In this document: piece after piece, positions 7,200 through 45,113 of the stretch | Numbering within the stretch: the first letter of the stretch is position 1 | Layout: every line of letters starts with the position of its first letter | From: a virus | Virus record (IMG/VR): IMGVR_UViG_3300045136_000520 | Span: 1-45,113 of that record | Direction: 5' to 3' (one strand) | DNA length: 45,113 nt | Program-made: the position numbers and the translations under genes | Notes under the pieces: generated by a model | Databases searched by the model: none | What the model was told of the DNA's origin: nothing | The model's input: only the letters and a program-made list of their open reading frames with translations

Positions 7200-7200
7200 C

Positions 7201-9352: not shown

Positions 9353-9370
9353 CAGCTGTCCCCCTCAGCG

Positions 9371-9403: not shown

Positions 9404-9930
9404 TTTCCTCGACGGTAGAGTTCAACCATTTGCCTGAGATACTCCATAAGCTTCCGCGTTTGCTCCATGTCTTCATTTCCGGTAAATAGACTCTCTGCTG
9501 CTCTATGAATGAAAGCTTTCTCACGAGGATCGTCGGTGTGAAACTCGCGGGAAATGCCGTGTGGGCCTTCTACTTTCACATCCTGCGAGGTTGACATCGC
9601 ATCTCCGTAATGAACGCTGACACGGCCCCTTGTCTTCATCGCGTAAAGGTCGGCTGGCTTCTCGAATGGTCCGAGAAGAATTTGCGTCTGGGTTGGGCGC
9701 TGCTCTTTCAGGCCTAGGTAGTTCTGGAGGGCAAGTTGTTCCGCCCCACTTGGCGCATCCATTCCGACAGCGCGCGCTCGCTTCGAGAGCCTATCGAAAA
9801 ACTCGATGGAATTCCTATTGCGCTGAATACAACTTTCCGAGACGCTACCGTCTGGTAGCCTGCAGTTGTCGAACAGGTGCGACATGATTTCTTGGTAGGA
9901 CGTTGAATATGTTGCACCAGACCAGGGCAT
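9400..9930 (-). CDS. Tandem paralog A, function unknown (176 aa)
   Basis: ATG at 9930 follows GGGGGAGAAGG and overlaps the previous stop by one base; a TTG three bases earlier is less likely because the paralog also begins Met-Pro-Trp. The N-terminal 20 residues and the C-terminal 95 match paralog B closely, at the DNA level too (around 9560-9600 versus 8905-8945). The length difference is exactly 26 codons. No domain recognised. Confidence 0.7.
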   Translation of the reverse strand: MPWSGATYSTSYQEIMSHLFDNCRLPDGSVSESCIQRNRNSIEFFDRLSKRARAVGMDAPSGAEQLALQNYLGLKEQRPTQTQILLGPFEKPADLYAMKTRGRVSVHYGDAMSTSQDVKVEGPHGISREFHTDDPREKAFIHRAAESLFTGNEDMEQTRKLMEYLRQMVELYRRGK

Positions 9931-10337
9931 CAACCTTCTCCCCCACCGCTAATTATACGCCATGCCAGTTGGGAGCTGAGCGATTCTCGCGGTGGTACGT
10001 CAACCACCTCACGTTGCTTGCCCCTGCCGGAAACCAGCAGAAACCTCGCCCATGGGATAGCTGACGCTGCAGCCTTGAGCTTCACAATCGCGTCCTCCCG
10101 CGCGTACCCACCCTTGCACTCGATGAACTGTACCTCCACATGCCCGTCCTTGCGAACCAGGGCACAGAAGTCAGGCTTATAGGTGCACGAAGAGCCAAGG
10201 GAGATTGTGAATGGCTCATAGCCCCACCAAAGGACCTCACCAGACCTTCTGAGGGCTTCGAGCTCAAGGGCGATATCCTGTTCTACCTTGCTTGCGTAAC
10301 TTGTCGTTGTCCGTATCATCCGCCGTCTACGGCCCAT
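9930..10337 (-). CDS. PD-(D/E)XK nuclease-like protein, DUF1064-type (135 aa)
   Basis: The core YKPDF (about 53-57), a strand, then FIECKG (about 71-76) and a Lys/Arg-rich helix, match the PD-(D/E)XK nuclease fold of the DUF1064 family, small phage endonuclease or resolvase-like proteins. The N-terminal SYASKVEQDIALELEAL helix supplies the usual glutamates. It would cut or resolve DNA, perhaps recombination intermediates. The start at 10337 or 10319 is uncertain (weak ribosome sites). It is divergent from the gene at 10354 with only 16 bp between. Confidence 0.75.
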   Translation of the reverse strand: MGRRRRMIRTTTSYASKVEQDIALELEALRRSGEVLWWGYEPFTISLGSSCTYKPDFCALVRKDGHVEVQFIECKGGYAREDAIVKLKAAASAIPWARFLLVSGRGKQREVVDVPPRESLSSQLAWRIISGGGEG

Positions 10338-10353
10338 AGCTTATGATAGCACT

Positions 10354-10674
10354 GTGAGACGCGATGCTGTCATCTCCAATCTTCAGAAGCTGGTAGACAG
10401 AACCCACGCAGCTAAGGACGGTTACATTCCTGTTTCAGCCGTCGGAAAGTACCTAGGGCTTCATCACCACAAGGTCGTCTCGCTGGCGAGGGGCATGGGC
10501 CTTCGCGTCCACTACGTAGAAAGGCACAAATCCTACACCGGACAGAAGCAGCGACATGCGTTCCTAAGATACGATGATGCCATTGTGCTTATTGAGACAT
10601 TCTCTAAAAGCGGCACTTCCAGTTTGACAAATCCAGACCCATGGACTATATTGAGTATCCGATGGGGGAAATGA
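10354..10674 (+). CDS. Putative DNA-binding protein (106 aa)
   Basis: GTG start at 10354, weak ribosome site. Residues about 24-50 (IPVSAVGKYLGLHHHKVVSL) read like a helix-turn-helix followed by a basic strand. It is the first gene of the late block before the packaging genes, so it could be a late-gene regulator or a packaging accessory. Neither is proven. Confidence 0.55.
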   Translation: MRRDAVISNLQKLVDRTHAAKDGYIPVSAVGKYLGLHHHKVVSLARGMGLRVHYVERHKSYTGQKQRHAFLRYDDAIVLIETFSKSGTSSLTNPDPWTILSIRWGK

Positions 10675-10686
10675 AAGGAGAGAGGA

Positions 10687-10887
10687 ATGGGGCACGACAC
10701 AATCGTTTTTCTAGCGTCCACATTAGTCATTATTGGCCTCGTTGGGGCCTATATCTTTTTTAAGGCCGACGTTGAGCGGCTTAGGTGTGCAAACTGCGGG
10801 AAGCCATTGAAGGCTAACGGGCACGCCATCTTTGATTTTGATAGATGCAACATCATTTGCCAGGACTGTTGGGAGATGGAGCCATGA
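10687..10887 (+). CDS. Membrane-anchored zinc-ribbon protein (66 aa)
   Basis: AAAGGAGAGAGGA precedes the ATG. A single transmembrane helix (about residues 5-25) is followed by a cytoplasm-facing ribbon with CANC (about 34-37) and CQDC (about 58-61). The four cysteines should hold one zinc. Role unknown; the stop overlaps the next start (ATGA). Confidence 0.7.
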   Translation: MGHDTIVFLASTLVIIGLVGAYIFFKADVERLRCANCGKPLKANGHAIFDFDRCNIICQDCWEMEP

Positions 10888-11351
10888 TTTTTGGGGTGCT
10901 CTTGCTTGCGGGGAATCTTGTTTATGGCCAGGGCGAACTGGCGGAGGTTCCAGCTCAGTTCCTCAACGTTAATTACGTTGACACGATCCGAGCTGGTTGC
11001 GGTCAGCAGGCTGAGTGCGGGCCTCCGTGGACCATTGAGGTCAGACTCTGGCCTGGAGAGGTTGTATGTTGGAATGATGGGGCGGCTCCAAAGTGCGCAA
11101 TTGCGGTTGGACCGATTTCCAAGGAGGCGCTCGTATTTTCGTTCTACACGTCGGGGGTCAAGATTCTTACTTGCATGGAGCCTGGGGTGAGACAACTACG
11201 GCTTGAGTGGGAGTCTCTCGGGAAGAAGCAGTCCATGCTTTATTGCTTAGTAACAGAGAGACTCCCTGACTATCTTCTCTGCCTTCAGCAGAGTAGAACG
11301 CCACAGCCGTTCCCTCTAAATGGTTGGTGTGCGCTATCATATAGGCAGTAG
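10884..11351 (+). CDS. Exported cysteine-rich protein (155 aa)
   Basis: Starts at ATG 10884, overlapping the previous stop. A short signal peptide (about residues 1-16, ending VYG) precedes a beta-rich domain with eight or so cysteines, likely disulfide-bonded in the periplasm or outside the cell. No family recognised. Together with the membrane zinc-ribbon gene before it, it forms an envelope-directed pair at the head of the late operon. Confidence 0.6.
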   Translation: MIFGVLLLAGNLVYGQGELAEVPAQFLNVNYVDTIRAGCGQQAECGPPWTIEVRLWPGEVVCWNDGAAPKCAIAVGPISKEALVFSFYTSGVKILTCMEPGVRQLRLEWESLGKKQSMLYCLVTERLPDYLLCLQQSRTPQPFPLNGWCALSYRQ

Positions 11352-11361
11352 GGGGTGAGTT

Positions 11362-11571
11362 ATGGCTAAAAAAAGAGGCAATCGAAAGAGTCCCGTGGGT
11401 GACGGGATGGTTTTTGAATCGCTCTCTGAGGCTGCGCGGGTTGCTCGCCACATCAGAGAGTCGAATCACGGAGCAAGAGTTCAGATACTTGCCCTGCGGA
11501 GTGAGGATGGTAAGGGAAGGTTCCAGGTTGTATCAAGCATTGGAGAGCATGGGGACAGAGATTCTTCCTAA
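11362..11571 (+). CDS. Small basic protein (69 aa)
   Basis: ATG 11362 behind GGGGGTGAG. The Lys/Arg-rich N-terminus is followed by a helix (SLSEAARVARHIRES) and two beta strands. No known family; the size and charge suit a nucleic-acid-binding accessory. It overlaps the next gene by 23 bp. Confidence 0.6.
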   Translation: MAKKRGNRKSPVGDGMVFESLSEAARVARHIRESNHGARVQILALRSEDGKGRFQVVSSIGEHGDRDSS

Positions 11572-11995
11572 GAAAGAGGACAAGACCTCGCAGGTCATCT
11601 CCACCGCCGCGCTAAGGATGGTACAGCACGGGGAAGACCCAGTTTCAGCTGTTTCTGCGGCGGCAAACATCGTTGGGGTGCGGGTCAATCCAGAGGAGTT
11701 TCTTCTCTACAACGTTGCAGAAATACAGTCACAGGCAGTCGCCCTAGTCCAAGAGCGCATGAAACAAGTCAAGCTGCTGCTGTCAGCGAAGCTGGCAGAA
11801 GCTCTTGGGGAACTTGGGCGGTCTGGCGCCATCCAGGAAGCGTTTGGCGAGCTTCTTGACGCCCTGCGCTCCTCAGATGAGAAGGCGCGTGAGCGGGCAG
11901 CAAGAGAAATTCGTGAACTAGCTGGGAAATATGCATCCGTTGAACGTGAGCAGCAGCAGCAAGCAAAGAGGATAACAGTCCACCTTGAGGAGTAA
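11549..11995 (+). CDS. Candidate terminase small subunit (148 aa)
   Basis: The start at 11549 is set by TTGGAGAGC just upstream. The protein is all-helical: an N-terminal region with STAALRMVQHG and AVSAAANIVGV that may form a DNA-binding bundle, a central Leu/Ala coiled coil, and a Glu/Arg/Gln-rich end. It ends 11 bp inside the terminase large-subunit gene, the usual place for the small subunit, which selects DNA and forms an oligomeric ring. The call rests on position and helical character, not sequence similarity. Confidence 0.5.
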   Translation: MGTEILPKKEDKTSQVISTAALRMVQHGEDPVSAVSAAANIVGVRVNPEEFLLYNVAEIQSQAVALVQERMKQVKLLLSAKLAEALGELGRSGAIQEAFGELLDALRSSDEKARERAAREIRELAGKYASVEREQQQQAKRITVHLEE

Positions 11996-13634
11996 ATGCC
12001 CAGAGTGCGGATTTGACCACGATGAGCTGCGGGCACGTATCCGCGGTTCGCTTTGGGACTGCGTAACGATAGTCTGTGGGTTCAACTCGAAGAACTTCAA
12101 AACGCCACCTTCAAGAAGGCTTCACAAGCGGGTATTAGACTGGCTTCAGGAGAGAATCGAGTCACCAGGGAAACATAAGCGCCTTCTTCTCATGCTTCCC
12201 CGTGGGCACCTAAAGACCTCTGTTGTTACAGTGGGATTGTCCACGTGGCTTGTTCTTCGGGACAGGAATACACGTGGGTTCATCATGCACAAGCTCCCTG
12301 AGGAGGCAAAGGGCTTTCTGGCCTACGTAAAGAAGATTCTCCGTTCGGAACTTGTCCTGCACCTATTCCCTGACGTTATCCCAGAGCAGGACCCAGCAAG
12401 AATTGGGTTGCGGTGGAAGGATGAGGAGATCGAGGTTCTGCGAGACCGCTACCACCACAACGCAACCCTTGAAACAAAAGGCTTGCGCTCAACAATGGAG
12501 GGAACGCACCCCCTATGGGCCATCGCCGACGACCTGGTGGATAGGGAGGTTTCAAGGTCGCCAGTTCTAACGTCACGTGCAATCGAGTTCAGAAGGAATA
12601 TCGGACAGATTCTTGAGCCAGATGACGGTAGCTTCTTCCTTGTGGTTGGCACCGCATGGCCTGGTGGGTTCTACGAAGAGCTCATGGACGATCCTGTATA
12701 CGAGAAACTTGTGCTCGGGTGCTACCAAGATGAGCGCAGCGCTCGCCTCGGGTTGACGGATTACGGCGAACCAATATGGCCAGAGCGCTACTCGAAGGAA
12801 GACCTGGAGGCACTCCGGATAGAAATGACGGATTATGTGTTTGCGCATCAATACCTTAACCAGTTCACGAGTAAGACTTCAGGATTCGATACTGGGGACT
12901 TTAGATACTATGACTGGGACGCTTCAACGCGGGAACTTAGGTTCTCGCTAGATGGTGGAAAGTCATTTCAGACGCTTTCACTCGCTGACGCGGATGCTAT
13001 CGTAACGACGATAGACCCAGCAACTGGGGCTGGAGACGATGAAACGGCAATCGTGACCACGGCGGCATTTCTCAAGAATCACGGCCTTCTCGCTGTGCTG
13101 GACGTGTGGCATGGGCGGGCAAATCCAGAAAGACAGCTTGAGGAGCTTTACAGGATGATAAAAAAGTGGAACCCGAGCAGGGTGGCAGCGGAGCGTGGGC
13201 TATGGGCGATGCTAGACCCGTTCTGGAAAAGAATGTGCGCCGAGCGCGGAATTCGTGTTCGTGTTGAGGAGATTTCGCATGGACTTCGCGCGAAGACGGA
13301 TAGGATTTGGCAGCTGCAACCGTGGGTGGCCAACCACCGTCTCTTAATCCAGCGCAACATGAACGTGATCGTTGACCAGTTTGCGCGCTACTCTCCAACC
13401 GCGCGGAAAAACCAAGATGATGTGATTGACTGCCTGGCGTATGCACTTGATGTTCTTGACGATATCATCCGTAGGTACTCTCCATTGCGCCTGCCTCAGA
13501 TTAAGATTTCGGATGGATACACGGATGACGAGGACGTAAGCGAAGAAATTGAGCAGGCACGCAGAAGGATAAGCGGTGGTTCGTGGAGAATCGTCGGGAG
13601 GAGTAAAATGAGAAGTGGCTGGAGGATTATGTGA
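11985..13634 (+). CDS. terL: Terminase large subunit (549 aa)
   Basis: ATPase and nuclease that pump and cut phage DNA at the portal. Walker A is LPRGHLKTS (71-79), Walker B LWAIADD (177-183), coupling motif VVGTAWP (220-226). The RNase-H-like nuclease has its first acidic residue in TTIDPATG (D344) and the last in QDDVIDCLAY near residue 485. An N-terminal CPEC with a further Cys may bind zinc. No ATG fits; TTG at 11985 is the only start that keeps the N-terminal ATPase region, with GAGG upstream. The length is normal for the family. Confidence 0.93.
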   Translation: MRSKCPECGFDHDELRARIRGSLWDCVTIVCGFNSKNFKTPPSRRLHKRVLDWLQERIESPGKHKRLLLMLPRGHLKTSVVTVGLSTWLVLRDRNTRGFIMHKLPEEAKGFLAYVKKILRSELVLHLFPDVIPEQDPARIGLRWKDEEIEVLRDRYHHNATLETKGLRSTMEGTHPLWAIADDLVDREVSRSPVLTSRAIEFRRNIGQILEPDDGSFFLVVGTAWPGGFYEELMDDPVYEKLVLGCYQDERSARLGLTDYGEPIWPERYSKEDLEALRIEMTDYVFAHQYLNQFTSKTSGFDTGDFRYYDWDASTRELRFSLDGGKSFQTLSLADADAIVTTIDPATGAGDDETAIVTTAAFLKNHGLLAVLDVWHGRANPERQLEELYRMIKKWNPSRVAAERGLWAMLDPFWKRMCAERGIRVRVEEISHGLRAKTDRIWQLQPWVANHRLLIQRNMNVIVDQFARYSPTARKNQDDVIDCLAYALDVLDDIIRRYSPLRLPQIKISDGYTDDEDVSEEIEQARRRISGGSWRIVGRSKMRSGWRIM

Positions 13635-13888
13635 GGTTCCAGTCACTCAATGAGCTACTTATGGCCCTAAAAGGTAAGGTGGGTACGGTTGTTCTTGTTG
13701 CGCACCCAGATGGGACATACACTGCCTCCGTTAAGCAGATAGTGAAAGGCAAGGAGATAACAGAAGACATGCGAGCCGCTGCAGAGGGGCTCCTTAGGTC
13801 TCTTGGTGGTGTGGCTGTAACATTAATAGCTCGCAACGATGGAGGGAAAGTGGTTCTAGACCGGATTGAGGCATTGAAGCGACTATGA
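13631..13888 (+). CDS. Small protein between terminase and portal (85 aa)
   Basis: GTG start at 13631 overlaps the terminase stop (GTGA), and its own stop overlaps the portal start (ATGA), so the three are translationally linked. Mixed alpha/beta with Val-rich strands; no recognised family. Position suggests a packaging or head-assembly accessory. Confidence 0.6.
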   Translation: MRFQSLNELLMALKGKVGTVVLVAHPDGTYTASVKQIVKGKEITEDMRAAAEGLLRSLGGVAVTLIARNDGGKVVLDRIEALKRL

Positions 13889-15801
13889 CTGACTGGAAAG
13901 AGTTGTTCGAGCTTGCAAAGACCGCAAGGTCTCAGTTAACTTCAACCTGGGACAGTGCCGCGAAGCTCTACGATGGAGAGCTTTCGCGCCCAGGAAAGTA
14001 TGATGAGTGGCAGCCTGACGTTGAAATTCCAATTGCCTGGGAAAGAGCGGTCGCCCAGTCTTCCAGAATAGTCAATGTGATAGTCGCCCAAGACCCACCG
14101 TTTGTTGCCACACCTAAGGTTGGTTCTGCCTTGGGAAATACCGCAGAGGTGGCTCGGGCGGTGGAGAAATACCTCAAGTGGAAGATTCGCACCTGGAAGG
14201 ATGCCACAAGGACTGACTGGCCGTCATGGCTTAATGAGCTTGTACGGCATCTACATGTTTACAGGATGGCCGTGCTGCATATCTATTCGCGAACAGAGCT
14301 TGCCCCAATCTTTAAGCGGAAGACTATCACTGAGGAGGTCGAACTCCCAGCCTCCCCATTTGGGGAAGGACCGGAGAGAGTCACGATTACGCGGGAGCTG
14401 TTAACGCAGGAACTCGGCCCAGTCCCGAAAGGAGCCAGGGCTGAACTTGTAGACCCACGTGACTTCTTCTGGTATCCGCTCTTTGTTGACAGCATCTCGG
14501 ACTGCTCATTTGTGGCACGGCGTCACTACATGAATCCGTGGGAGCTTGAGAGAATAGCTCGGACTGGATTTTTCGACCCAGGAGCTGTCCGGAAGGTCCT
14601 AGAAAGAGAGCCAGAGCGCCAGATCAGTGGCGAAATCGAGCGCATTGATGAGCCACGTAGGGGTTTCTACGAGGTTCTTGAGGCTTACTATTGGGAAGAG
14701 ACCGAGGCGGGGTGGCAAGAGGTTGTGGCTTTCGTTGAAGTCTCAACTGAAACCGTTCTACGGAAAGAACCGAACCCCTTTGTTGAGTTCAGGATTCCAT
14801 TTGTGGTAATCCCATACGAATGGAGGAGCGGAAGCTTTATCGGCCCGTCATTTGTTGAGCGAATGAGCGGAATACATGCGGCAATCAACGCCGCTGTTAA
14901 CCTTGACCTTGAGAGCGCCATATTAGCCAACAGCATGCCCGTGGCCACGGACGATGATGATGTTGCTGATGAGCTGAACGATCGGACACTGAGACCTGGT
15001 CAGGTCCTTAGAACCACTCGCCCACCACGCGAAGCAATTTTTCCTATTAACTTCCCTGGACCGAACGGACAGCTCGGATTGTTACGGGCATATATGGAAC
15101 AGCACGCCGATATGATTTCCGCCTCTTCCCCCGCTGTCTTCGGGATAGAGCAGGCGCAACGCCCGACATTTAAGGGCACAGCGGCCCTAATCGAGGAGGC
15201 GCGGCAGCCTCTCTACCGCCTTCTGGAGTCCGTCCGAGCTGGGCTTTCAGAAATGGCTTACCAGCTTCTCGCTAGGGACAGGGAGACATTCGATACGAGG
15301 ATTCCCTATTTCGCTTACGATGAGGACGGTAGGGTGCTAGGGGAATACCTTCTCTCCGTGCCAGACGGACTTCTCAAAGATTCTGTACTTATAGAACTCG
15401 CTGCAAGCTCTGAATCGTTCTCGAAGGCAACGAGGCAGGAAGGATTAATTGAGGCAATTAACCAGGTGAATAACACCTATCAAGCCATTCTTGGGATGTT
15501 GCAACTTGCAACACAGCAGCCTGGTGTGATATCTTTGGTAGCGGTGAAGGGTGCGAGGGCGCTAGCAACGCTGCTCAGGGAGGCCGCGAAGGATTTCGGG
15601 ATTCCAGGAGCGGAGTTGATAGCTCCCGATCCAACGGAGGATATGAAATATGGTGACCTCATTAACCAAGCCTTTCAAGCAGCCGTTAGCTCAATCAGTA
15701 ACGCAGTCGCTCAACCAGGGATTGGACAGCAGGGACAGGGACCTCCTCAAGGAGCTGGCCCGCAGGCTGGCGGGGGCGAAGTCGGCCCAGCAGGGCTTTG
15801 A
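13885..15801 (+). CDS. Portal protein (638 aa)
   Basis: Forms the twelve-subunit ring at the head vertex through which DNA passes. The order after terminase, the length, and a podovirus-portal-like pattern support the call: N-terminal helices, a beta-rich wing with LVDPRDFFWYP near residue 190, PFVVIPYEWRSGSFIGPSFVERM near 310-330, and a long helical stem and crown. The C-terminal 30 residues are low-complexity Gly/Gln/Pro, and their DNA also encodes the start of the next gene in another frame. Confidence 0.9.
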   Translation: MTDWKELFELAKTARSQLTSTWDSAAKLYDGELSRPGKYDEWQPDVEIPIAWERAVAQSSRIVNVIVAQDPPFVATPKVGSALGNTAEVARAVEKYLKWKIRTWKDATRTDWPSWLNELVRHLHVYRMAVLHIYSRTELAPIFKRKTITEEVELPASPFGEGPERVTITRELLTQELGPVPKGARAELVDPRDFFWYPLFVDSISDCSFVARRHYMNPWELERIARTGFFDPGAVRKVLEREPERQISGEIERIDEPRRGFYEVLEAYYWEETEAGWQEVVAFVEVSTETVLRKEPNPFVEFRIPFVVIPYEWRSGSFIGPSFVERMSGIHAAINAAVNLDLESAILANSMPVATDDDDVADELNDRTLRPGQVLRTTRPPREAIFPINFPGPNGQLGLLRAYMEQHADMISASSPAVFGIEQAQRPTFKGTAALIEEARQPLYRLLESVRAGLSEMAYQLLARDRETFDTRIPYFAYDEDGRVLGEYLLSVPDGLLKDSVLIELAASSESFSKATRQEGLIEAINQVNNTYQAILGMLQLATQQPGVISLVAVKGARALATLLREAAKDFGIPGAELIAPDPTEDMKYGDLINQAFQAAVSSISNAVAQPGIGQQGQGPPQGAGPQAGGGEVGPAGL

Positions 15802-15985
15802 GGTTGCCCTGGAGGCAGCCAACGAAGCCCTTTCGGTGACGCTGAGGCAACTTCATGGAAGTGTAAAGAGCTACGAGGACCACTCAGAGGCAATTTCTCG
15901 CGCTGCTGCTAGCTTTATTTCGGTTGCTGGGCTGGCAGCGTTTCTTGAGGCCGTCCTAGCTGAATCGAAACGATTGGAGGGATAA
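15650..15985 (+). CDS. Hypothetical helical protein overlapping portal (111 aa)
   Basis: GGAGG at 15636-15640 stands 9 nt before ATG 15650, inside the portal gene; the portal frame reads the same region differently. The overlap is 152 bp. The protein is strongly helical with regular Leu/Ala heptads, much more protein-like than the portal's Gly/Gln-rich tail in the shared DNA. A later TTG near 15720 is a possible alternative start. It is followed directly by the scaffold-like gene. Role unknown. Confidence 0.6.
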   Translation: MVTSLTKPFKQPLAQSVTQSLNQGLDSRDRDLLKELARRLAGAKSAQQGFEVALEAANEALSVTLRQLHGSVKSYEDHSEAISRAAASFISVAGLAAFLEAVLAESKRLEG

Positions 15986-16786
15986 ATGGTAGATTTTCCA
16001 TTCCCGCTCGATGAAAATCAGGAACCAGTCCCCGAGGAGTTCCAAGCTAAGCCTAACGTGCAAGCCACTGAACAGAAGAGTGCCGAGCAATCACAATCCG
16101 AGCAGCAGGAAGCTGGGGTCGCTGAGGATCAACAGGCCGTTTCTGAGCAAGTTGGAGAGATTCCTCTAGAGCAATGGAAGAGGGCTGTTGACCTCATAAT
16201 CTCCGAATCAGGTCCACCCCAGGAATATGTGCCCCCAGAGAGAATCCCTCCACCTCCGCCTAAAGACTTCGAGCGGTATATTTCCGACCCAGATTACGCT
16301 GCGAAGTACGACCAGATGGTGTTGCTATACCAGCACGCGATGCTTCAGGCTATTCGTGAAGAAATGCGTGCGAGCGTGCGCAGCGCCATCAACGAGGCAA
16401 TGAAGGCTACGATCAGGGAACGTGGAGCCGAGGCATTTTCATGGGCGGCCTCGCAGTACCTTGACCTCTTCCAAACCGAAGATCAGAAGCAGGTGCTTCA
16501 GAGCGCTATTCTCGACGCGCGGCAGGCTGTAAACAAAAACCCAGCACTTGCTGCCGACAAGGGGTTCTGGGCAGCTACGTTTGCTATGGCGGCTGCCCGT
16601 GCTGGTATCCCGTTAAGGCAACCTGAGAGAGTTAGTTCACAGCCCCCTCGACCGTTTGGGCCTGGAGGTAAGCCGGCGCCGCAAGAGCAGTACACGCTCT
16701 CCGATGAGGAACGCAGGCTGGCTGCTCAATTTGGGTTGACTGAGGAGGAGTGGATCAAAAACATGAAGGAGGCTGGGAGGCTATGA
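15986..16786 (+). CDS. Scaffold-like head assembly protein (266 aa)
   Basis: Acidic Gln/Glu-rich N-terminus (1-60), a Pro-rich segment (77-95), a long helical core (110-200) and a basic Pro/Gly linker leading to a C-terminal helix. This build and the position between portal and capsid genes match phage scaffolding proteins, which form the internal core for procapsid assembly and then leave. Sequence similarity to a named family is not evident to me. ATG 15986 follows TTGGAGGGATAA. Confidence 0.65.
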   Translation: MVDFPFPLDENQEPVPEEFQAKPNVQATEQKSAEQSQSEQQEAGVAEDQQAVSEQVGEIPLEQWKRAVDLIISESGPPQEYVPPERIPPPPPKDFERYISDPDYAAKYDQMVLLYQHAMLQAIREEMRASVRSAINEAMKATIRERGAEAFSWAASQYLDLFQTEDQKQVLQSAILDARQAVNKNPALAADKGFWAATFAMAAARAGIPLRQPERVSSQPPRPFGPGGKPAPQEQYTLSDEERRLAAQFGLTEEEWIKNMKEAGRL

Positions 16787-17295
16787 GCAGGAACCTAAAG
16801 TCACGCTCGCAAACAGAGCTCGCAGAGATGGCTAGGGCAGTTGGTGAGATGGGGAGCGTTTCTGCGGAGGAAATTCGCCAGATTCTCCGAAGGACGGGTG
16901 GCCCAGTATCAGCGACAATCACAGAGATGGTGAATCGTGTCTCGCCAGAGCACGTGGTGCTTTTTGTTGCGGATAGGGAGCTTGGCGTAGCACTTCAGGT
17001 ACCCACTACCCGTGTGGCTACCGAGTCTGAGCTGACTCAGATCACCGGAATGTCGCGCTTCGAACTTGAGGGATTTAGGTTCAAGTTCGAGGCTGACGGA
17101 AGGGTGAAATTCTTCGACACGACCGTCTGCTTACGAAACAGGGATGTGCACCAAAAAGTGATTTCAGAAAAGGCAAGGATTGCCATGGAGCCGTTCTCTG
17201 GGAAATTGGTTGAAGACTCTATTGCTAGCAGGCTCCGCGGCTCTGAACCGAAAGAAGAACGCAGCGTCACAGTAGGCGGTCCGATAAAGGAGTAG
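16783..17295 (+). CDS. Hypothetical head-region protein (170 aa)
   Basis: ATG overlaps the scaffold-like stop (ATGA), with GGGAGG upstream. N-terminal helices (about 1-60), then a beta-rich domain (about 65-130) and a charged tail. No recognised motif. It lies between scaffold and capsid genes and may be a minor head or assembly factor. Confidence 0.6.
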   Translation: MSRNLKSRSQTELAEMARAVGEMGSVSAEEIRQILRRTGGPVSATITEMVNRVSPEHVVLFVADRELGVALQVPTTRVATESELTQITGMSRFELEGFRFKFEADGRVKFFDTTVCLRNRDVHQKVISEKARIAMEPFSGKLVEDSIASRLRGSEPKEERSVTVGGPIKE

Positions 17296-17331
17296 TATAA
17301 TTAAGTAAGCCCGGGCCGAGGCGGCAGGGCT
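17296..17331 (+). promoter_or_regulatory. Leader with TATAAT and hairpin before capsid genes
   Basis: TATAAT at 17296-17301 without a recognisable -35 box, then a stem AGCCC/GGGCT enclosing GCC/GGC (17308-17331) with no T run. It is the only gap of note in the head operon, just before the two genes expected to be most expressed. A promoter or an mRNA-stabilising hairpin are both possible. Confidence 0.4.
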
Positions 17332-17378
17332 GTAAGGCGTGGCCAGACTGAAGGAGCGCCGAAATATGGGAGGGAACT

Positions 17379-17843
17379 ATGGCTCTTCGTATTGTTCGTG
17401 GGCCTGGTGGCGGCGCTCCGGTAGATGCAAAGTTTCCCGTCGCCACTGGCGTTTCGTTTAATATCGGAGACCCTGTGGCTCTCGATATTTCCGAGGGCTA
17501 CAAGGTCAAAAAGTCCGTTGAATACATTCTTGGTATCGCGCTCACAAATGTGAGCTCCGGCTCTCCAGCTGAGGCAGAGGTCCAGCTCATTACTCCGGAG
17601 ACGGTTGTTGAGATCACTGAAAAAATCTCTGGTGCAACCGCCCCATTCCAGGCTGGCACACCGATCGCTGTAACCGCTGCTGGTGTCCCAGACCGCGGGA
17701 CCCCCTCTGACGACGCGTCGCTCTATCTCATCACTCGCGTAACTGTTCAGAATGTTGAGCGCTCTACCACAAATGAGCGGATTGTCAGCTATTTGGCAAT
17801 CCCATTTGGGAACAAGCACGGCTTCAACGGTGCCGTGGCGTAA
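17379..17843 (+). CDS. Putative capsid decoration protein (154 aa)
   Basis: GGGAGGGAACT precedes the ATG. Almost wholly beta, Gly/Val/Thr-rich, lacking charged helices; size and place directly before the capsid gene match head-stabilising or decoration proteins (DUF2190-like). The family call is from overall pattern (VATGVSFNIGDPVALD, later IPFGNKHGF) and is tentative. Confidence 0.6.
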   Translation: MALRIVRGPGGGAPVDAKFPVATGVSFNIGDPVALDISEGYKVKKSVEYILGIALTNVSSGSPAEAEVQLITPETVVEITEKISGATAPFQAGTPIAVTAAGVPDRGTPSDDASLYLITRVTVQNVERSTTNERIVSYLAIPFGNKHGFNGAVA

Positions 17844-17855
17844 AAGGAGGCAAAG

Positions 17856-18740
17856 ATGAATTACCAACAGTTCGCAAACACTGTATCGCTGCAACTCTTC
17901 CAACCGCCATTCAGGCAGAAGGCCTCCGAGAAGCACTGGCCGTGGGACCAGATTTACACCACCAGGACTTCCAACCGCGGGTCCGAGCAAACCTTCGGAT
18001 TCACTGGCCTTCCCGCCGCGCAGAAGACCCCGATCTACGGGGAAGTCTACTACGCGGATATGGAAGAGCTCGGTGTAACGAAGTGGGTGCATGAGAAGTA
18101 CTCTTTGGGGGCGATTCTCCCAGAGGAGCTCATTCAAGATCAGCAATACATCCAGTTCACGCGTGACCTTGGGGCTGCGATCGGTGAGGGCCATGCGTTT
18201 GCGCGTGACCTCGCCGCCGCCTACCCGTTCCAAAACGCATTCACCACTTTCACGGTCTACGACAGTCAACCTCTCTGCGGGACTCACACACTTAAGAATG
18301 GCATGACCATCAACAACGCTATGACCGGTTCTTCGATCACGTATGCCACAGTGTGGGACGCGGTGCTGTATGGCCAGCTCTCGCTCATGACCGATAAAGG
18401 GCTGCCTTTCGTTGCCGAGCCAGTTGCTCTTGTTTATAACCCCATCAATGAGCCAGAGGTTCTCTTGCTGCTCAAGAACGAATTTCAGCCCCACATCGTC
18501 GAGCGTGACAAGAACCTCCTGCCCAAGCTGACTCCTGTTCCATGCCGCTTCTTGCCGAATGGCTACTGGTTTGTGACGTTCGAGGGGTTTAAGGAAGACA
18601 ACTTCCACTGGTCTCGCAAGGAGCCGAGCGTCCGCGAGAGCATTGACTACGACCGTGAGGCCGTGAAGTTCACGTCCAGCTCTCGGTTCAGCTTTGGTCC
18701 GCGTGATTTTCGACGCATCATCGGTAATCCTGGGGTCTAA
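17856..18740 (+). CDS. Major capsid protein, HK97-fold, gpT-like (294 aa)
   Basis: Builds the icosahedral shell. The N-terminal arm is followed by an E-loop-like segment (residues 35-75), a helical spine (80-125), and a C-terminal stretch with a Trp/Phe-rich strand then SSSRFSFGPRDFRRIIG, a pattern typical of HK97-fold capsid proteins of the Mu gpT type. AAAGGAGGCAAAG precedes the ATG. No sign of a cleaved protease-dependent prodomain. Confidence 0.85.
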   Translation: MNYQQFANTVSLQLFQPPFRQKASEKHWPWDQIYTTRTSNRGSEQTFGFTGLPAAQKTPIYGEVYYADMEELGVTKWVHEKYSLGAILPEELIQDQQYIQFTRDLGAAIGEGHAFARDLAAAYPFQNAFTTFTVYDSQPLCGTHTLKNGMTINNAMTGSSITYATVWDAVLYGQLSLMTDKGLPFVAEPVALVYNPINEPEVLLLLKNEFQPHIVERDKNLLPKLTPVPCRFLPNGYWFVTFEGFKEDNFHWSRKEPSVRESIDYDREAVKFTSSSRFSFGPRDFRRIIGNPGV

Positions 18741-18742
18741 CG

Positions 18743-19075
18743 ATGTCTCGCGTCTTCAAGCTCATCAAGCTGGTTGACGGCGCGGGTCCGGTGGAGACCC
18801 CATGGGTGAGCATTGAAGGGGCCGTCCGCGTTGGCGTGGCGTACCAAGCGTCCGCCAACGCGGACTTTTATCTCCAGGCTTCAATCCTGGAGGACGGCAA
18901 CCAGAACAATGGGTATACGTCTCACCTTTTTAGTGCCACTCCTGCGTTTACGGTGAGCTATGCTGCCCCATTCTCAGGCCCAGATAAGGCCCCGCCAAGG
19001 TGGGTACGTGTTTCCTGCGCTCAAACTGTCGCTAACCTGAAGGTGTGGATTTTTGCTGACTTCGAGGAGGGTTAG
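18743..19075 (+). CDS. Small beta-sandwich virion protein 1 (110 aa)
   Basis: Starts 3 bp after the capsid stop without a strong ribosome site, so translational coupling is likely. Predominantly beta, with TPWVSIEGA near residue 20 and TVANLKVWI near the C-terminus. The next gene shows the same order (GPWADLRNA, TIANLEIVA), so the two look like diverged duplicates. Head decoration or fibre-type function is inferred from location. Confidence 0.6.
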   Translation: MSRVFKLIKLVDGAGPVETPWVSIEGAVRVGVAYQASANADFYLQASILEDGNQNNGYTSHLFSATPAFTVSYAAPFSGPDKAPPRWVRVSCAQTVANLKVWIFADFEEG

Positions 19076-19077
19076 TC

Positions 19078-19407
19078 ATGGCCGTAACCTATTTCACTGG
19101 GCGTTACACACTTTTCTCAGGTCCGGCGAATGCTGGGGTGAAGGGTCCATGGGCCGACCTTCGCAATGCTAAGCAGCTGCGGATTTGGGCTAAGGCGTCC
19201 TCTCCGACAACGGTTGTTTTTCGATACACAATCTTCGGCGAGGATAGGCGGAATACCGACTACATCGACACTACCCCATACTCGGTTGGCACAAACTGGA
19301 CTGAAATTATGACCACAGAGCTCGATGGCCCGCTCACCTACCTGGCTGTCATCCCACAGGATACGATTGCAAACCTGGAGATAGTGGCCGCTGGAAGCGC
19401 TATCTAG
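19078..19407 (+). CDS. Small beta-sandwich virion protein 2 (109 aa)
   Basis: GAGGAGGGTTAGTC precedes the ATG. Similar in size, order of strands and C-terminal TIANLE motif to the preceding 110-aa protein, suggesting an old tandem duplication. Probable virion surface component; no family assigned. Confidence 0.6.
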   Translation: MAVTYFTGRYTLFSGPANAGVKGPWADLRNAKQLRIWAKASSPTTVVFRYTIFGEDRRNTDYIDTTPYSVGTNWTEIMTTELDGPLTYLAVIPQDTIANLEIVAAGSAI

Positions 19408-19410
19408 GCA

Positions 19411-19839
19411 ATGACTAAGAGCAGGATAATCCGAGATATCTCGGAACTCCTGCCTCACGTCCAGGAGTTGGCCAAAAAGTGGCTTGAGCTCTGCAATCGA
19501 GAGGGGGTATCACCGAAGATTGTAGAGACCTACCGAACCCCAGAGAGACAGGCCGAGCTCATGAAGGTAGGCGGAGTGACGAAGGCTCTCCCCATGCGGA
19601 GCTGGCACCAGTGGCGGAGGGCATGGGATGCTTATCCGATTATAGACGGGGTTGTCCGCGTCCAGTATGACGCGGTGACTCGCGAGGCGTTCCATCTTAT
19701 GGGTAGCGTTGCCGTCTCTCTTGGGATAGAATGGGGAGGGAACTGGAAGACGCTCAAGGATTATGCGCACTTCCAGGTCACAGATGGGCTTAAGATTGAC
19801 GATCTTGCCGCAATCGAAAAAGAGTGCGGGGAGCACTAA
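19411..19839 (+). CDS. Endolysin, M15/VanY-type peptidase (142 aa)
   Basis: Cuts the peptide stems of peptidoglycan at lysis. Zinc ligands fit the M15 pattern: S64, H66 and D73 in SWHQWRRAWDAY, and H120 in YAHFQ, with the Trp-Gly-Gly-Asn-Trp before it. The usual glycine of the SxHxxGxAxD motif is replaced by arginine (residue 69, codon CGG, one base from GGG). No signal peptide, so it needs a holin. Followed by two membrane genes and an exported repeat protein, together the lysis region. Confidence 0.85.
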   Translation: MTKSRIIRDISELLPHVQELAKKWLELCNREGVSPKIVETYRTPERQAELMKVGGVTKALPMRSWHQWRRAWDAYPIIDGVVRVQYDAVTREAFHLMGSVAVSLGIEWGGNWKTLKDYAHFQVTDGLKIDDLAAIEKECGEH

Positions 19840-19851
19840 GGGAGGAATACG

Positions 19852-20571
19852 ATGGTACGTAAACTTGTCTTGGTTGGCACAATTAGCTTGGGGCTGGCTG
19901 GAACGGCGGTTGCTGGAAAGCCGGTCCAAATTCAGGGGTACTGGGTAGTTCCAGAACAGCAGCTGTGCTTCTCAGCAAACCTGCCGAAGCCTGACTTCAA
20001 GGGAGTCTATTACAGTAACTTTTGCCCAGAAGGATATAAAGGTGTTGAGACGATTAAGCTCTCTTCAACATCCGCTGCTGGTGGCTTTCTGGTAAGTGAT
20101 TCAAAAAAGGAGTGCATCCCTGTTGCCTCTAACCCTGGCATTGGGCTCGCGGGTTACCGGTATGGGGAAGTGTGTCCAGATGGGTACGGCGTTGTTACTC
20201 CCAGTAACTCAACGCCGTTCTATATTAAGCTCTTGAATTTACTGGACAGCTGGTTCGGACTGAGGAACAAGCTCGTCTTCCTGCCGAACGGTCTGTTTGT
20301 TGCGTTCCTTATGTTCCTGGTGGCCTTGATTCGCTTTGTTGCATCTCAGCCATTGCTTAATGGCGTTTTAGACAAGATCACAAACGGGAAGGGTACGGTT
20401 GCTCTGACCGCCGCTCTCGGGCTTTTGTTACAGCTTCAGGACTTCCTGCAGGGCGGGCTCACAGCGTACGAGGCCCTTACGTGGCTGTTTTCCGTGATTG
20501 GTGCTATGGGTCTCTGGGAAGTAGTTAAGCGCATTGTGCGCAAGGTCCCTGTTCTCGGAGGGATTTTGTAG
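19852..20571 (+). CDS. Exported/membrane protein with holin-like end (239 aa)
   Basis: Signal peptide at 1-21 (cleavage after AVAG likely), a Cys-containing beta domain (40-115), then two or three hydrophobic helices (about 145-165, 175-200, 210-225) and a basic end. The C-terminal membrane part next to the endolysin suggests a holin or holin partner. The N-terminal exported domain is unusual for a holin, and a spanin-like or receptor-shielding role is also possible. GGGAGGAATACG precedes the ATG. Confidence 0.6.
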   Translation: MVRKLVLVGTISLGLAGTAVAGKPVQIQGYWVVPEQQLCFSANLPKPDFKGVYYSNFCPEGYKGVETIKLSSTSAAGGFLVSDSKKECIPVASNPGIGLAGYRYGEVCPDGYGVVTPSNSTPFYIKLLNLLDSWFGLRNKLVFLPNGLFVAFLMFLVALIRFVASQPLLNGVLDKITNGKGTVALTAALGLLLQLQDFLQGGLTAYEALTWLFSVIGAMGLWEVVKRIVRKVPVLGGIL

Positions 20572-20819
20572 TGCCTGAAGCTGGGGCCATTATCTGGAGC
20601 GCGAATGCTGGTCTTATCAGTATTCTCATATTCATCCTTATTCAGATGGCCCGCAGGGACAGGCAGGCCCTTGACGCGAATCTCAACATGCTCAGGGAGG
20701 AAATCCGTAGACTCTCCCAGAGCATCGAGGACCTCAAGGACGAAATGGCCTCGGAGCGTGTGCGCACAGAGGCCAGGCTCTCAAAGCTAGAGGAAAGGAT
20801 GGCTGGGCGTGTACAATGA
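20571..20819 (+). CDS. Membrane-anchored coiled-coil protein (82 aa)
   Basis: GTG start shares a base with the previous stop. One N-terminal transmembrane helix (about 8-25) followed by an unbroken charged coiled coil (30-78). This is the layout of inner-membrane spanins and of some small holin regulators. The stop overlaps the next gene's ATG (ATGA). Confidence 0.65.
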   Translation: MPEAGAIIWSANAGLISILIFILIQMARRDRQALDANLNMLREEIRRLSQSIEDLKDEMASERVRTEARLSKLEERMAGRVQ

Positions 20820-22957
20820 GGCAATTTCTCATCCTCCTGTTCCCAGCGCTCGCGTTTGCACAGTGGGACACTAACGCGAAGAAGATTTGGGGAAGGCCAA
20901 TTGCCCCCACCGCCCCCTCCACCGGTCAGGCTCTTGTGTGGGATGGAACAAAATGGGTCCCGCAGACAGTGTCTGGAGGTGGAGGGGGCGGAGATGCTAC
21001 ATCAATTCAGGGCCGTCCAGTTTCCTCAGCGGCGCCTTCAGCCGGCCAGTTTTTAGGATGGGACGGGACACAGTGGGTTCCTCTAAGCGAGTCTGGTAAT
21101 GCGACCTACCTTCAGGGTAGGCCTGTGTCTTCGACAACTCCATCATCAGGGCAGCTTCTAGGTTGGGACGGGACGCAGTGGGGGCCGGTCTCGGAGTCTG
21201 GTAATGCAACCAGCCTCCAGGGGAGGCCGGTATCTTCCACTGCCCCGTCCTCCGGCCAGCAGTTAACATGGACTGGCACGGAATGGGCTCCAGTCGCCTA
21301 CACCGAGTCAGGAAACGCCACCAAGCTTCAAGGGAGGGCGATCTCACCAGCTGCCCCATCAGTCGGCCAGCAACTGACGTGGGACGGGGTCGCCTGGGTC
21401 CCCGCGACCTACTCGGAGAGCGGAAATGCAACGGCACTCCAGGGGAGACCAGTCTCAGCATCGGCACCGTCCACCGGTCAGCAGTTGACGTGGACAGGAA
21501 CAGCATGGGAGCCAGCGACATACGCCGAGTCCGGTAACGCAACGAAGCTCCAGGGAAGGGACGTTTCTGGTATGGCGCCAAGTGTCGGCCAGCAGCTTAC
21601 ATGGAATGGTACGGCCTGGGCTCCGGCGACGTACAGTGAAAGCGGTAATGCGACAAAGATACAGGGAAGAGATATTGACGCTGCTGCTCCAAGCCCTGGA
21701 CAGTTCCTTGGCTGGGATGGGACCAAATGGACACCAAGTAGCGAGTCGGGAAATGCTACTCAGCTGCAGGGACGCAACGTCTCTTCGGCGGCTCCGTCCC
21801 CAGGACAGCAACTCACTTGGACAGGAACGGAATGGGCACCAGCAATGTACACAGAGAGTGGCAATGCCACCAAACTCCAAGGGCGCGATGTTTCCGCTTC
21901 GGCCCCTTCAGTTGGTCAGCTTTTAGGCTGGAATGGAACCCAATGGGCGCCGACAAATGAGAGTGGGAATGCCACCAAGTTGCAGGGAAGAGATGTTGCG
22001 AGCGACGCTCCTGCGGCAGGGCAGCAACTAACATGGGACGGTACAAAATGGGCGCCACAGACCTATTCTGAGAGTGGAAACGCCACAAAGCTCCAGGGAA
22101 GGGACGTTTCCCCGTCGGCTCCGAGTGCCGGACAGTTCCTCGGATGGGACGGGACAAAATGGACTCCAAGCAATGAGTCTGGGAACGCAACAAAGATTCA
22201 AGGGAGGAGCGTCTCTGCGACTGCTCCGTCGGTTGGCCAGCAACTAACCTGGAATGGGACAGAATGGGCACCAGCTACGTATGTGGAATCGGGAAACGCG
22301 ACGCAGCTTCAGGGCAGAGCCGTCTCATCGTCTGCCCCATCAACAGGGCAAACGCTCGTCTGGAACGGCTCTCAATGGGCTCCGTCCGTCCAAAATGCCG
22401 CTCAACTGCAGGGTAGGCCGGTTTCGCCCTCCGCACCATCAACTGGGAATGTCCTCGCTTGGGACGGGACTCAATGGGCTCCTTCTGCCTCAGGTGGGAG
22501 CGGGGACGCGATTTCTCTTAGGGGCCGTCCTATTTCGACGGACGCTCCAGGTAACGGGAATGTCTACGTGTGGAACGAAGCCGCGTCGCAATGGGAGCCA
22601 GCAAGAGTTAACGCGGTACTTATCTCCGGTTATCCAGTCTCGTACCTAGCCCCATCCCCTGGTCAGGTCCTTGAGTATAACGGTTCTGAGTACTCCCCAA
22701 CTGACGTGAACGCGAGGAAGCTCCAGGGGTATGAATTGCTATTTAGTAGCGTGTTAGAAGGCCAGGTTATTAGGTATCACAGTGCAAATGCAACGTTTCG
22801 GAGTAGCTACCCAATCCTCACTGCCTCCCCTGGTACATGCTCTTCGGCCTACAGTGGTGCAGCCTATTGGGCTATCAGCGGAACAAGTGTGAGGCTTTAT
22901 GTCTGCACACAAAACTCAAGTGGTGTCTGGGCCTACCGATATGCTACCCTTAACTAG
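20816..22957 (+). CDS. Exported repeat protein, 17-18 QGRxVS...APSxGQ units (713 aa)
   Basis: A signal peptide (MRQFLILLFPALAFA, 1-15) precedes about 17 tandem units. Each reads roughly LQGRxVSxxAPSxGQxLxWDGTxWxP followed by ESGNAT, in two lengths (35 and 37 residues) that interleave. Units near the end decay (SGYPVS, LQGYEL), and a unique C-terminal domain of about 55 residues with two cysteines follows. Similar units occur in phage tail-fibre-like and bacterial surface proteins. The signal peptide is odd for a virion part: the product may be secreted to the cell surface, or the leader may be vestigial. Confidence 0.75.
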   Translation: MRQFLILLFPALAFAQWDTNAKKIWGRPIAPTAPSTGQALVWDGTKWVPQTVSGGGGGGDATSIQGRPVSSAAPSAGQFLGWDGTQWVPLSESGNATYLQGRPVSSTTPSSGQLLGWDGTQWGPVSESGNATSLQGRPVSSTAPSSGQQLTWTGTEWAPVAYTESGNATKLQGRAISPAAPSVGQQLTWDGVAWVPATYSESGNATALQGRPVSASAPSTGQQLTWTGTAWEPATYAESGNATKLQGRDVSGMAPSVGQQLTWNGTAWAPATYSESGNATKIQGRDIDAAAPSPGQFLGWDGTKWTPSSESGNATQLQGRNVSSAAPSPGQQLTWTGTEWAPAMYTESGNATKLQGRDVSASAPSVGQLLGWNGTQWAPTNESGNATKLQGRDVASDAPAAGQQLTWDGTKWAPQTYSESGNATKLQGRDVSPSAPSAGQFLGWDGTKWTPSNESGNATKIQGRSVSATAPSVGQQLTWNGTEWAPATYVESGNATQLQGRAVSSSAPSTGQTLVWNGSQWAPSVQNAAQLQGRPVSPSAPSTGNVLAWDGTQWAPSASGGSGDAISLRGRPISTDAPGNGNVYVWNEAASQWEPARVNAVLISGYPVSYLAPSPGQVLEYNGSEYSPTDVNARKLQGYELLFSSVLEGQVIRYHSANATFRSSYPILTASPGTCSSAYSGAAYWAISGTSVRLYVCTQNSSGVWAYRYATLN
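20990..22780 (+). repeat. In-frame tandem repeat, unit about 105 or 111 bp
   Basis: The DNA under the repeat protein shows recurring blocks around GGACAG, TGGGACGGGAC and GGNAATGC. Synonymous differences between units are many, so most copies are not recent, but neighbouring units (for example 21490-21700) remain similar enough to recombine and change copy number. Confidence 0.75.
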
Positions 22958-40107: not shown

Positions 40108-40926
40108 TCACTTGAAAAGATTTGGTTTCTCCTCTTTTTCTACTTTCTCTACGTGCTCGCTTGGCTCAACCTGCTGGGGTTGCGCCTCTTCCTGTGCTGT
40201 TTTCTGTTCCTGTTCCGGCTCAACCTCAACCACCAGCTCTGGAGCTTCTTCCACCTCAATTGCCCTCGCCAGAGCATCTTTCGCCAAAGCCAGCGGAAGT
40301 CGCCTGAGTGCTCGCTTTACTACAGTCTTGAGCGCGGCCTGCGAATAGAACTGCGTCCACAATGGGGAGTTGGGCTGCTTGGAGACGGCCCGAATTCTGT
40401 CAATTTCTGCCCTGCTCATGATCTCATGGATAAAGCCCCCCTCCTTCATCCTAATTACACAATATGCAGCAACGATTTTTTCGTCTCCCCGATCAGCGGA
40501 AAGTGATGGTTCGTGCGTTATGTTTTCCTCCGTCCCAAACGTCACCTTGAGGGAGTCTCCCTCGTACACAACGTGGGCACTCACCGATTCGACCAACCCA
40601 GTCTTGTAGGCCAGGTAAATAAGCCCGTGCACACCAACCTGAAGCTGCGCCTCATAGGTTTGTTTCTGGCTGTTCTTGAAAGGGATGAGGTACGCGTGGG
40701 CCATCGGCCCGACCCCCAGTTCAATCCCCAGCGAGGCAACTGCCTTCAGCGCATTTGCGATTGAATGTCCGGTGCACAGTGCCAGCTGCGGGTTCTGCTG
40801 GACCGCAAGGTTGAATGCCCCGAGCAGCGAGTCTACGTTGTACCCAGCCGGTGCGTACCTCTGGATTTTTGACCTTTCGGCAAGTACGTACGTTACAACA
40901 CTTTGGCTAGGTGTTTTCCCGGGCAT
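40108..40926 (-). CDS. recT: RecT-family single-strand annealing protein (272 aa)
   Basis: Anneals complementary single strands in phage recombination. The pattern GYNVDSLLGAFNLAVQQNPQL, SIANALKAVASLGIELG, AYLIPF and QLQVGVHGLIYLAYKTG is characteristic of RecT. The last 60 residues are acidic and disordered. AAAGGAGGGG sits 3 nt before the ATG at 40926. It follows the exonuclease gene by 10 bp; the two act together on double-strand ends. Confidence 0.92.
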   Translation of the reverse strand: MPGKTPSQSVVTYVLAERSKIQRYAPAGYNVDSLLGAFNLAVQQNPQLALCTGHSIANALKAVASLGIELGVGPMAHAYLIPFKNSQKQTYEAQLQVGVHGLIYLAYKTGLVESVSAHVVYEGDSLKVTFGTEENITHEPSLSADRGDEKIVAAYCVIRMKEGGFIHEIMSRAEIDRIRAVSKQPNSPLWTQFYSQAALKTVVKRALRRLPLALAKDALARAIEVEEAPELVVEVEPEQEQKTAQEEAQPQQVEPSEHVEKVEKEEKPNLFK

Positions 40927-40936
40927 TTCCCCTCCT

Positions 40937-41893
40937 TTACTTTGGACCAAGGAACCTGCGGGTCCCTGGCTTAATTTCCGTGTAGCGCGAAATTAATTCA
41001 TCGGGCGGATTGAGAGCCCGCGCTACCCGCTCCCAGTCCACCCTCAGTTGTTCCTTTGTGTTCTTCCATGTGATGGTGCCTAGGCTTGACCTAAGCACCT
41101 CCGCCGTCCCCATGCGCTCCATAATCCGCGCCTTGAGGGTAGCCACCTCCTCTTCTGCCGCTTTGAGCTTCTCCTGCGCATCAATTAGCTTCCGTATTAG
41201 CTCCTCATCCTCCTCATTGGCCTCGCGTATCGTCCCTGCCTCCGCAAGCCTGTACTTTTCCTGTGCGAGTGCAAGCGCCTCTTGCCCGAAAGCCTCCGGT
41301 GGAATTCCCGCTTCCACCAGCTTCCAGAATGCCAGTGCCTCCTCTGCGCATTTCTCCCCAAGTTCAAGCAGGTGAGCGTCAACAGGGATGGTATAAAGCT
41401 CAACCGTTCCAAGACCGAAGAGAACTGGGAGCTCAACTCGTTCTGGCGAGAATCCGTTCTTCCGCAGGCAGTGCACTTGAGCCGCCACCTGGACCAAGTA
41501 GTATGGGGGAATCTGGTCTGTCCCAGGTTCCCCCCAGCCCCTTGCACCCCTTTCCGCTGTCTTGCACTCAATGAGAATCTTCCCGTCATCCCCGATTGCG
41601 TCCGGTGTCGCGGCCAACTTGTGCTCCTCGTCCACGAAAAGGATAAACTGCGTTCTCCTGTACGCCCTATGTGGCCTATTATCTTGCCACCATTGGAGGA
41701 GCTCGTCTTCAAGCCTCTGTCCGACCCGCATGCGTAGAGACTCTGTTTGCTCCTCTATTCCGCTCTTGATCGCCCAGAGTTTGTACCGCGAAAGCCACGG
41801 ATTGATCCCCATGGCCGCGCTTACCTCTGAAGCGCCTATGAACTCCCCTCGCTTGTCAAGCCATTCTGCCCTCGACCTGCAGTGGATTATCAT
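40937..41893 (-). CDS. YqaJ-type recombination exonuclease (318 aa)
   Basis: Lambda-exonuclease-like enzyme that resects DNA to make the single strands RecT uses. The N-terminal GEFIGASEVSAAMGINPW signature of the YqaJ family is followed by E62, D98 (TPDAIG), E109 and K111 (ILIECKT) and a later Gln in VAAQVHC, the PD-(D/E)XK catalytic set. A coiled coil (about 235-270) precedes the end. Start overlaps the previous stop by 4 bp. Confidence 0.92.
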   Translation of the reverse strand: MIIHCRSRAEWLDKRGEFIGASEVSAAMGINPWLSRYKLWAIKSGIEEQTESLRMRVGQRLEDELLQWWQDNRPHRAYRRTQFILFVDEEHKLAATPDAIGDDGKILIECKTAERGARGWGEPGTDQIPPYYLVQVAAQVHCLRKNGFSPERVELPVLFGLGTVELYTIPVDAHLLELGEKCAEEALAFWKLVEAGIPPEAFGQEALALAQEKYRLAEAGTIREANEEDEELIRKLIDAQEKLKAAEEEVATLKARIMERMGTAEVLRSSLGTITWKNTKEQLRVDWERVARALNPPDELISRYTEIKPGTRRFLGPK

Positions 41894-43879: not shown

Positions 43880-43908
43880 TCCTTTCTCCCCGCTTTCCTC
43901 GCTGGGGT
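43880..43908 (-). promoter_or_regulatory. Start-associated repeat, copy 4 (degenerate)
   Basis: 24 of 29 positions match copy 1. The Shine-Dalgarno side (GCGGGGAGAAAGGA) is intact, while the distal arm of the hairpin has changed (CCCCAGCGAGG). This shows which side is constrained. Confidence 0.6.
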
Positions 43909-43914
43909 GGGTGA

Positions 43915-44162: not shown

Positions 44163-44552
44163 TTAAATCTCAATTCCATTCCGAGCGGCAAGCCTTCGAG
44201 CTGTTTCTTCGAAAGCAAACCATGCCAGCAGGTTTTGATTGTTCACCTCCAACGCCAAGGGGTCTTCTGGGTCCCATTTCCCCATGAACAGCTCACCAGG
44301 CCCAACTGCCCCAAATTGGTCCATGTATTCGTAGATGAGCTTGTTAATCTCAGCTTTATGCCTGTTGAAAAATGGCAGGGTGTCCCTATAGTAAATCAGT
44401 TCGCCAACAGCTCCGCTCGCGCATCCTCCTTGTGACAAATCGTAAAGAAAGCCTGCTGCCCCGTTGTCATATTCTCTTCCATATTTGTTTATGATACGCT
44501 GAACTTCCCTTTCCAACCGCGTCTGTGCCCCCATAATTCTTATTTTTTTCAT
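44163..44552 (-). CDS. Conserved phage protein, DUF7222-like (129 aa)
   Basis: AAAAGGAGGTGAAAA precedes the ATG. The pattern GAAGFLYDLSQGGCASG, GELIYYRDTLPFFNRHKAEI is one I know from an uncharacterised phage family (DUF7222-type) of about this length. Helical; role not established. Confidence 0.65.
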   Translation of the reverse strand: MKKIRIMGAQTRLEREVQRIINKYGREYDNGAAGFLYDLSQGGCASGAVGELIYYRDTLPFFNRHKAEINKLIYEYMDQFGAVGPGELFMGKWDPEDPLALEVNNQNLLAWFAFEETARRLAARNGIEI

Positions 44553-44585: not shown

Positions 44586-44978
44586 CTATTCCGTTTTGCT
44601 CTCGGCCATTTTTCGCGTGATGCCGTCCCATAGGCGCGCTTGTTCATCGTCGCCCACGTGGCTGATCCAGTCTTGCAGCGCCTCGGGAAAAGGGCGCTCA
44701 GGGTAGCCCCTTTCTCGCGCTAGCTCCTCCACAAAAGCGCGCTCTGCAGGGGACAGCCAGGAGCTGTGCTCCAACCATAGCCATCCAAGATTCGCCACCA
44801 GCCAGCGCGCCGCATGCGCTGCAGCCGCTTCATGCGCACGTACAGCGATACAATACCGGCCATAATTGTGTCCAGTCATATTATCCCCTGTGAGAAGTTT
44901 CCACCGCTGCGGTCGTGGTGGTACGGCCGCTTCAAGACTGCGAAAGATGCTATCGATGTTAGGCGTTTCTACTTTCAT
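44586..44978 (-). CDS. Hypothetical protein (130 aa)
   Basis: GAAAGGAAGGAAGGA precedes the ATG at 44978, itself behind start-associated copy 5. Helical, Trp- and Ala-rich, acidic C-terminal half with EEQARLWDGI-like character. No family recognised. In the larger circle the gene before it is the 91-aa zinc-ribbon ORFan; in the shorter circle it is the 104-aa ORFan. Confidence 0.65.
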   Translation of the reverse strand: MKVETPNIDSIFRSLEAAVPPRPQRWKLLTGDNMTGHNYGRYCIAVRAHEAAAAHAARWLVANLGWLWLEHSSWLSPAERAFVEELARERGYPERPFPEALQDWISHVGDDEQARLWDGITRKMAESKTE

Positions 44979-44986
44979 TCCTTCCT

Positions 44987-45015
44987 TCCTTTCTCCCCGC
45001 TTTTCCCCGCGGGGT
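44987..45015 (-). promoter_or_regulatory. Start-associated hairpin/SD repeat, copy 5 (= copy 1)
   Basis: Same element as 99-127 by the contig overlap. Beyond 45015 the sequence continues as 1689-1786 instead of 128 onward. Confidence 0.75.
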
Positions 45016-45025
45016 GGGGATTTTC

Positions 45026-45113
45026 TCAGGTATAAATCACTTCCCCTTGGCAATGCAAAAGCTGACCATCAACTACAGTTGCTCCACCATGCGCCCTTGT
45101 GTATTCCATCACA
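45026..45113 (-). CDS. 3' part of the 104-aa ORFan, repeated at contig end
   Basis: Identical to 1699-1786, the last 28 codons and stop of the gene at 1699-2013. It shows the alternative gene order in which that gene directly precedes the 130-aa ORFan. Confidence 0.8.
   Translation of the reverse strand, partial: VMEYTRAHGGATVVDGQLLHCQGEVIYT

Follow-up and report, generated by a model that had tools for sequence, protein, structure and literature searches.

Strain bubbles in the assembly graphs of phages have been described with Phables (PMC10563150), and the maxK-long end sequences that metaSPAdes leaves at contig breaks are handled by COBRA, whose simulations took in both repeats and within-population variation (PMC10914622). 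The 45,113-nt stretch of viral DNA analysed here from sequence only (IMG/VR record IMGVR_UViG_3300045136_000520, positions 1-45,113, one strand; hereafter the window) resembles such bubbles in consisting of a circular phage component with two paths between two branch vertices and with k-length contig ends, but differs from them in that a single contig contains both arms, so that the FASTA file suffices to recognise the variant. Another system of reference is provided by the SAS/ESAS of Cluster K mycobacteriophages, short repeats, some with inverted repeats, which occur just upstream of the start codons of many small genes and for which a role in translation initiation has been proposed (PMC3203893). 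The repeated elements of the window recall the SAS/ESAS by their position before start codons and in no other respect: the SAS/ESAS motif is GGGATAGGAGCCC, against a core CCCCGCGGGGAAAAGCGGGGAGAAAGG here, and the elements are not members of the SAS; in addition, they are far fewer (three exact copies and one degenerate), the phage is unrelated, and two of the copies double as an indel junction. In the literature on phage deletion variants at start elements, no case on point was found.

With a probability somewhat above three in four, the window is the k=127 assembly of a circular genome from one tailed-phage population, comprising two nearly identical forms that differ by the presence or absence of a 1,561-bp cassette of four small genes. 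It appears to be genuine strain variation of an ordinary sort, and such variant bubbles are well known. Read in this manner, a single public contig reveals through its k-mer-length end overlaps a standing variant in the gene content of an uncultivated phage, and the deposited record would represent neither form, the bases of the other arm being the 225 at the right end or the 1,786 at the left.

Self-comparison of the window returned two exact matches of 127 bp, one between 1-127 and 44889-45015, which stops at the mismatch of 128 with 45016, and one between 44987-45113 and 1660-1786, the extent of which is bounded by the contig end. The 127 bp of both end overlaps correspond to a standard largest k of SPAdes. 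In a de Bruijn graph with k=127, the paths of circles with and without a segment must part at the 127-mer that precedes the divergence and meet again at the one that follows it. The parts of the graph are located as follows.

1-127 (contig start) and second copy 44889-45015, no strand: branch vertex V1, a 127-mer (exact match; branch in the two-form model)
1660-1786 and second copy 44987-45113 (contig end), no strand: branch vertex V2, a 127-mer (exact match; branch in the model)
1-1786, no strand: insert arm of the bubble (graph arithmetic and model)
44889-45113, no strand: skip arm of the bubble, 225 nt, carrying the junction 45015|1689 (graph arithmetic and model)

A de Bruijn mini-model with k=127 was built from the module and its 600-bp flanks, with a random linker to complete the circle. 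When the form that carries 128-1688 was mixed with the form that lacks it, the graph branched at two vertices of length k and no others, at window positions 1 and 1660; these were connected by two alternative paths identical to window 1-1786 and 44889-45113, whereas the insert form alone gave no branch. The 225 nt of the skip arm equal 127+98, and 98 equals 127-29, as a join within a 29-bp repeat demands; 98 128-mers are private to this arm, none being common to the insert arm or the backbone. Since the two-form model reproduces both arms and the skip-arm arithmetic agrees, the contig corresponds to a walk from V1 through the insert arm to V2, along the backbone back to V1, and through the skip arm to V2 once more, and together with the overlaps this makes the record a circular phage assembly with both arms of one bubble at its ends. 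The assembler would have put them in one contig by passing from the insert arm through the backbone to the skip arm. The circles amount by arithmetic to 44,888 bp for the long form and 43,327 bp for the short form. An earlier sequence-only reading had proposed two end matches of exactly 127 bp, a k=127 node with two exits, a skip exact within a 29-bp repeat and circles of about these two sizes; the coordinates of the matches were reproduced, the contig ends were exactly regenerated by the two-form model and not by the one-form model, the repeat was recovered (99-127 = 1660-1688), and the sizes agree.

The four genes announced by the same reading (91, 184, 63 and 70 aa) are all present as minus-strand open reading frames, in a long-form order, on that strand, of 104 aa, then 70, 63, 184 and 91 aa, then 130 aa.

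128-1688 (equivalently 99-1659, the junction lying anywhere within the 29-bp repeat), no strand: segment present or absent, 1,561 bp (end overlaps, arithmetic)
178-453, minus strand: 91-aa gene with a zinc-ribbon-like Cys pattern (ORF; no match above the curated family cut-off)
551-1105, minus strand: 184-aa gene, weak match to phrog_25332 of unknown function (ORF, family search)
1216-1407, minus strand: 63-aa gene, no family (ORF, family search)
1436-1648, minus strand: 70-aa gene, no family (ORF, family search)
1699-2013, minus strand: 104-aa gene on the upstream side, complete whether or not the segment is present
44586-44978, minus strand: 130-aa gene on the downstream side, likewise complete whether or not the segment is present

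None of the four segment products reached the curated threshold in Pfam or NCBIfam, and no transposase, integrase or recombinase was matched among them, the only likeness, of zinc-ribbon type and below threshold, being to a transposase zinc-ribbon domain (E=0.011). A mobile element (transposon or integron cassette) was considered for the segment and rejected because it holds no recombinase gene. Scans for Rfam families and tRNAs were empty. Near the end of the 63-aa gene (1220-1266) a short CGCCATTTTGGCGCG-like motif occurs three times, and beyond the 130-aa gene 44163-44552 (minus strand) encodes a 129-aa member of the DUF7222 family (Pfam E=2.4e-18).

The repeat shared by both ends of the segment belongs to an element which reads, on the minus strand, CCCCGC-GGGGAAAA-GCGGGG followed by GGGAGAAAGG, with an ATG 8-12 nt past GGGAGAAAGG.

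99-127, also 44987-45015, minus strand: repeat copy A, before the 130-aa gene, with the hairpin and GGGAGAAAGG (self-comparison, ORFs, folding)
1119-1149, minus strand: repeat copy B, before the 184-aa gene, inside the segment (31 bp exactly equal to 101-131 in the A region)
1660-1688, minus strand: repeat copy C, before the 70-aa gene (exact 29-bp match to A)
43880-43911, minus strand: degenerate copy D, before a short reading frame (84% over 32 nt)

Copy B, a third exact copy of the element, did not figure in the earlier reading. Copies A and B share 94% identity over 50 bp and are closer to each other than either is to C. The GGGAGAAAGG motif is carried by all four segment genes and by the 130-aa gene, with one mismatch in that of the 184-aa gene. 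The hairpin folds stably, with z values against shuffles of -2.6 for copy C and -0.6 to -1.4 for the others, and a structural role is at most suggested, copy C alone being clearly better than shuffles. As the repeat comprises the hairpin and GGGAGAAAGG before the ATG, the leader of the 130-aa gene is unchanged in the skip form from the hairpin on, and with breakpoints in two of three near-identical hairpin and ribosome-binding elements neither form deprives this gene of its start signal. After the skip the hairpin and GGGAGAAAGG still precede it, with an ATG 9 nt downstream of the motif, which bears out the start element that had been claimed in front of it; that this element is a working one is a reading of the bases alone. 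No copy of the start element was found in other viral contigs.

The skip junction lies within the exact 29-bp direct repeat of A and C, a single copy of which is kept in the skip arm. An exact 29-mer is common to only 20 of the 1.0e9 position pairs of the circle body, and the junction falls in one of these 20. The two forms are identical across 98 bp to either side of the repeat (divergence there of at most about 1.5% at 95% confidence), which argues either for a recent event or for frequent recombination between the forms. The short form may have arisen by deletion between the direct repeats A and C, probably through single-strand annealing by the phage's own exonuclease and annealing protein, with the loss of 1,561 bp in one step. 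The remaining element would then serve the 130-aa gene, so that expression at the join would be preserved, and the four cassette genes would be dispensable, at least under some conditions. A phage exonuclease and an annealing protein (RecET-like) can join direct repeats by single-strand annealing, and the window encodes such a pair.

40937-41893, minus strand: YqaJ-type recombination exonuclease (Pfam E=1.1e-18)
40108-40950, minus strand: RecT single-strand annealing protein (Pfam E=1.1e-35)

The RecT protein has about 600 matching phage records. With respect to the RecET-like systems, the phage resembles them in the presence of both proteins and differs in that the making of this particular junction by the pair is what we infer; the pair is a plausible cause of the deletion.

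The main rival to two phage forms is a chimera made in the library, whereby PCR template switching between GC-rich hairpin repeats of different fragments created the skip junction and the assembler kept the chimeric edge. Short GC-rich hairpins are indeed a type of sequence prone to template switching, but the homology between A and B is longer (31 bp, and 94% over 50 bp) and nearer, and yet the A-C join alone is seen. According to the model, random switching should add A-B, B-C and reciprocal joins, giving a 12-edge graph, an argument of little weight in that less frequent joins may have been lost to trimming or resolved. Every one of the 98 junction 128-mers would, moreover, have had to be assembled. 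Such an artefact is the less likely source, with a probability of about one in seven, and the two edges more likely represent two phage forms in the sample.

Among real variants, the direction of change might be reversed, the short form being the older state and a cassette with start elements at its ends having entered one element by recombination with another phage. The somewhat higher GC content of the segment (0.566, against 0.531 for the whole) and the likeness of A and B, which exceeds that of either to C, speak for a gain, but the searches found neither a donor nor a relative with either state, the GGGAGAAAGG motif is common to the four segment genes and the neighbouring genes, and the sequence data polarise neither loss nor gain; this origin is judged improbable. 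Even less credence is given to one true molecule with both junctions, either the linear genome that the contig spells out or a head-to-tail dimer, 88 kb long, of both forms. Both junctions do stand in the contig as written, but the linear genome requires two separate end overlaps that each equal a standard assembler k by coincidence, and nothing speaks independently for a dimer of two different forms. Returning to a mixed population with and without the cassette, the start elements as cassette boundaries are a modest point of interest. A bolder and rather doubtful extension would make them standard joints, the phages of this lineage shuffling small cassettes of genes through annealing between identical hairpins at gene starts, each gain or loss keeping a correctly placed start signal and presence or absence being maintained by selection; if true, such repeated joints would offer a simple route to viable gain and loss of phage genes.

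Searches of the viral collection for a second record with either form found none, and the viral contigs searched held no relatives of the 130-aa, 104-aa, 184-aa and RecT proteins. The portal search of genome contigs found nothing, the phage and plasmid DNA searches of the locus gave no homologous region, and the alignment-based scan contributed only terminase relatives of 22-23% identity. The terminase and portal distantly resemble those of podovirus-like phages. The sole close relative, a contig of 11,870 bp (L005), covers mainly 9.86-20.97 kb of the window and not the variable locus; its positions 768-11870 align to window 9863-20967 with 80% DNA identity over 11.1 kb, and the terminase protein is 97% identical, a combination indicative of many synonymous changes under strong purifying selection. 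Two adjacent paralogous genes (8744-9352 and 9400-9933, minus strand) share 58% identity, with a 44-bp exact repeat in the region, and both align to the same stretch near the start of L005, as if single-copy there. Finally, 43 bp at 4234-4276 show 95% identity to the microvirus record MZ089777.1, which matches in 8 places; the sequence there may be a contaminant or resemble an adapter.
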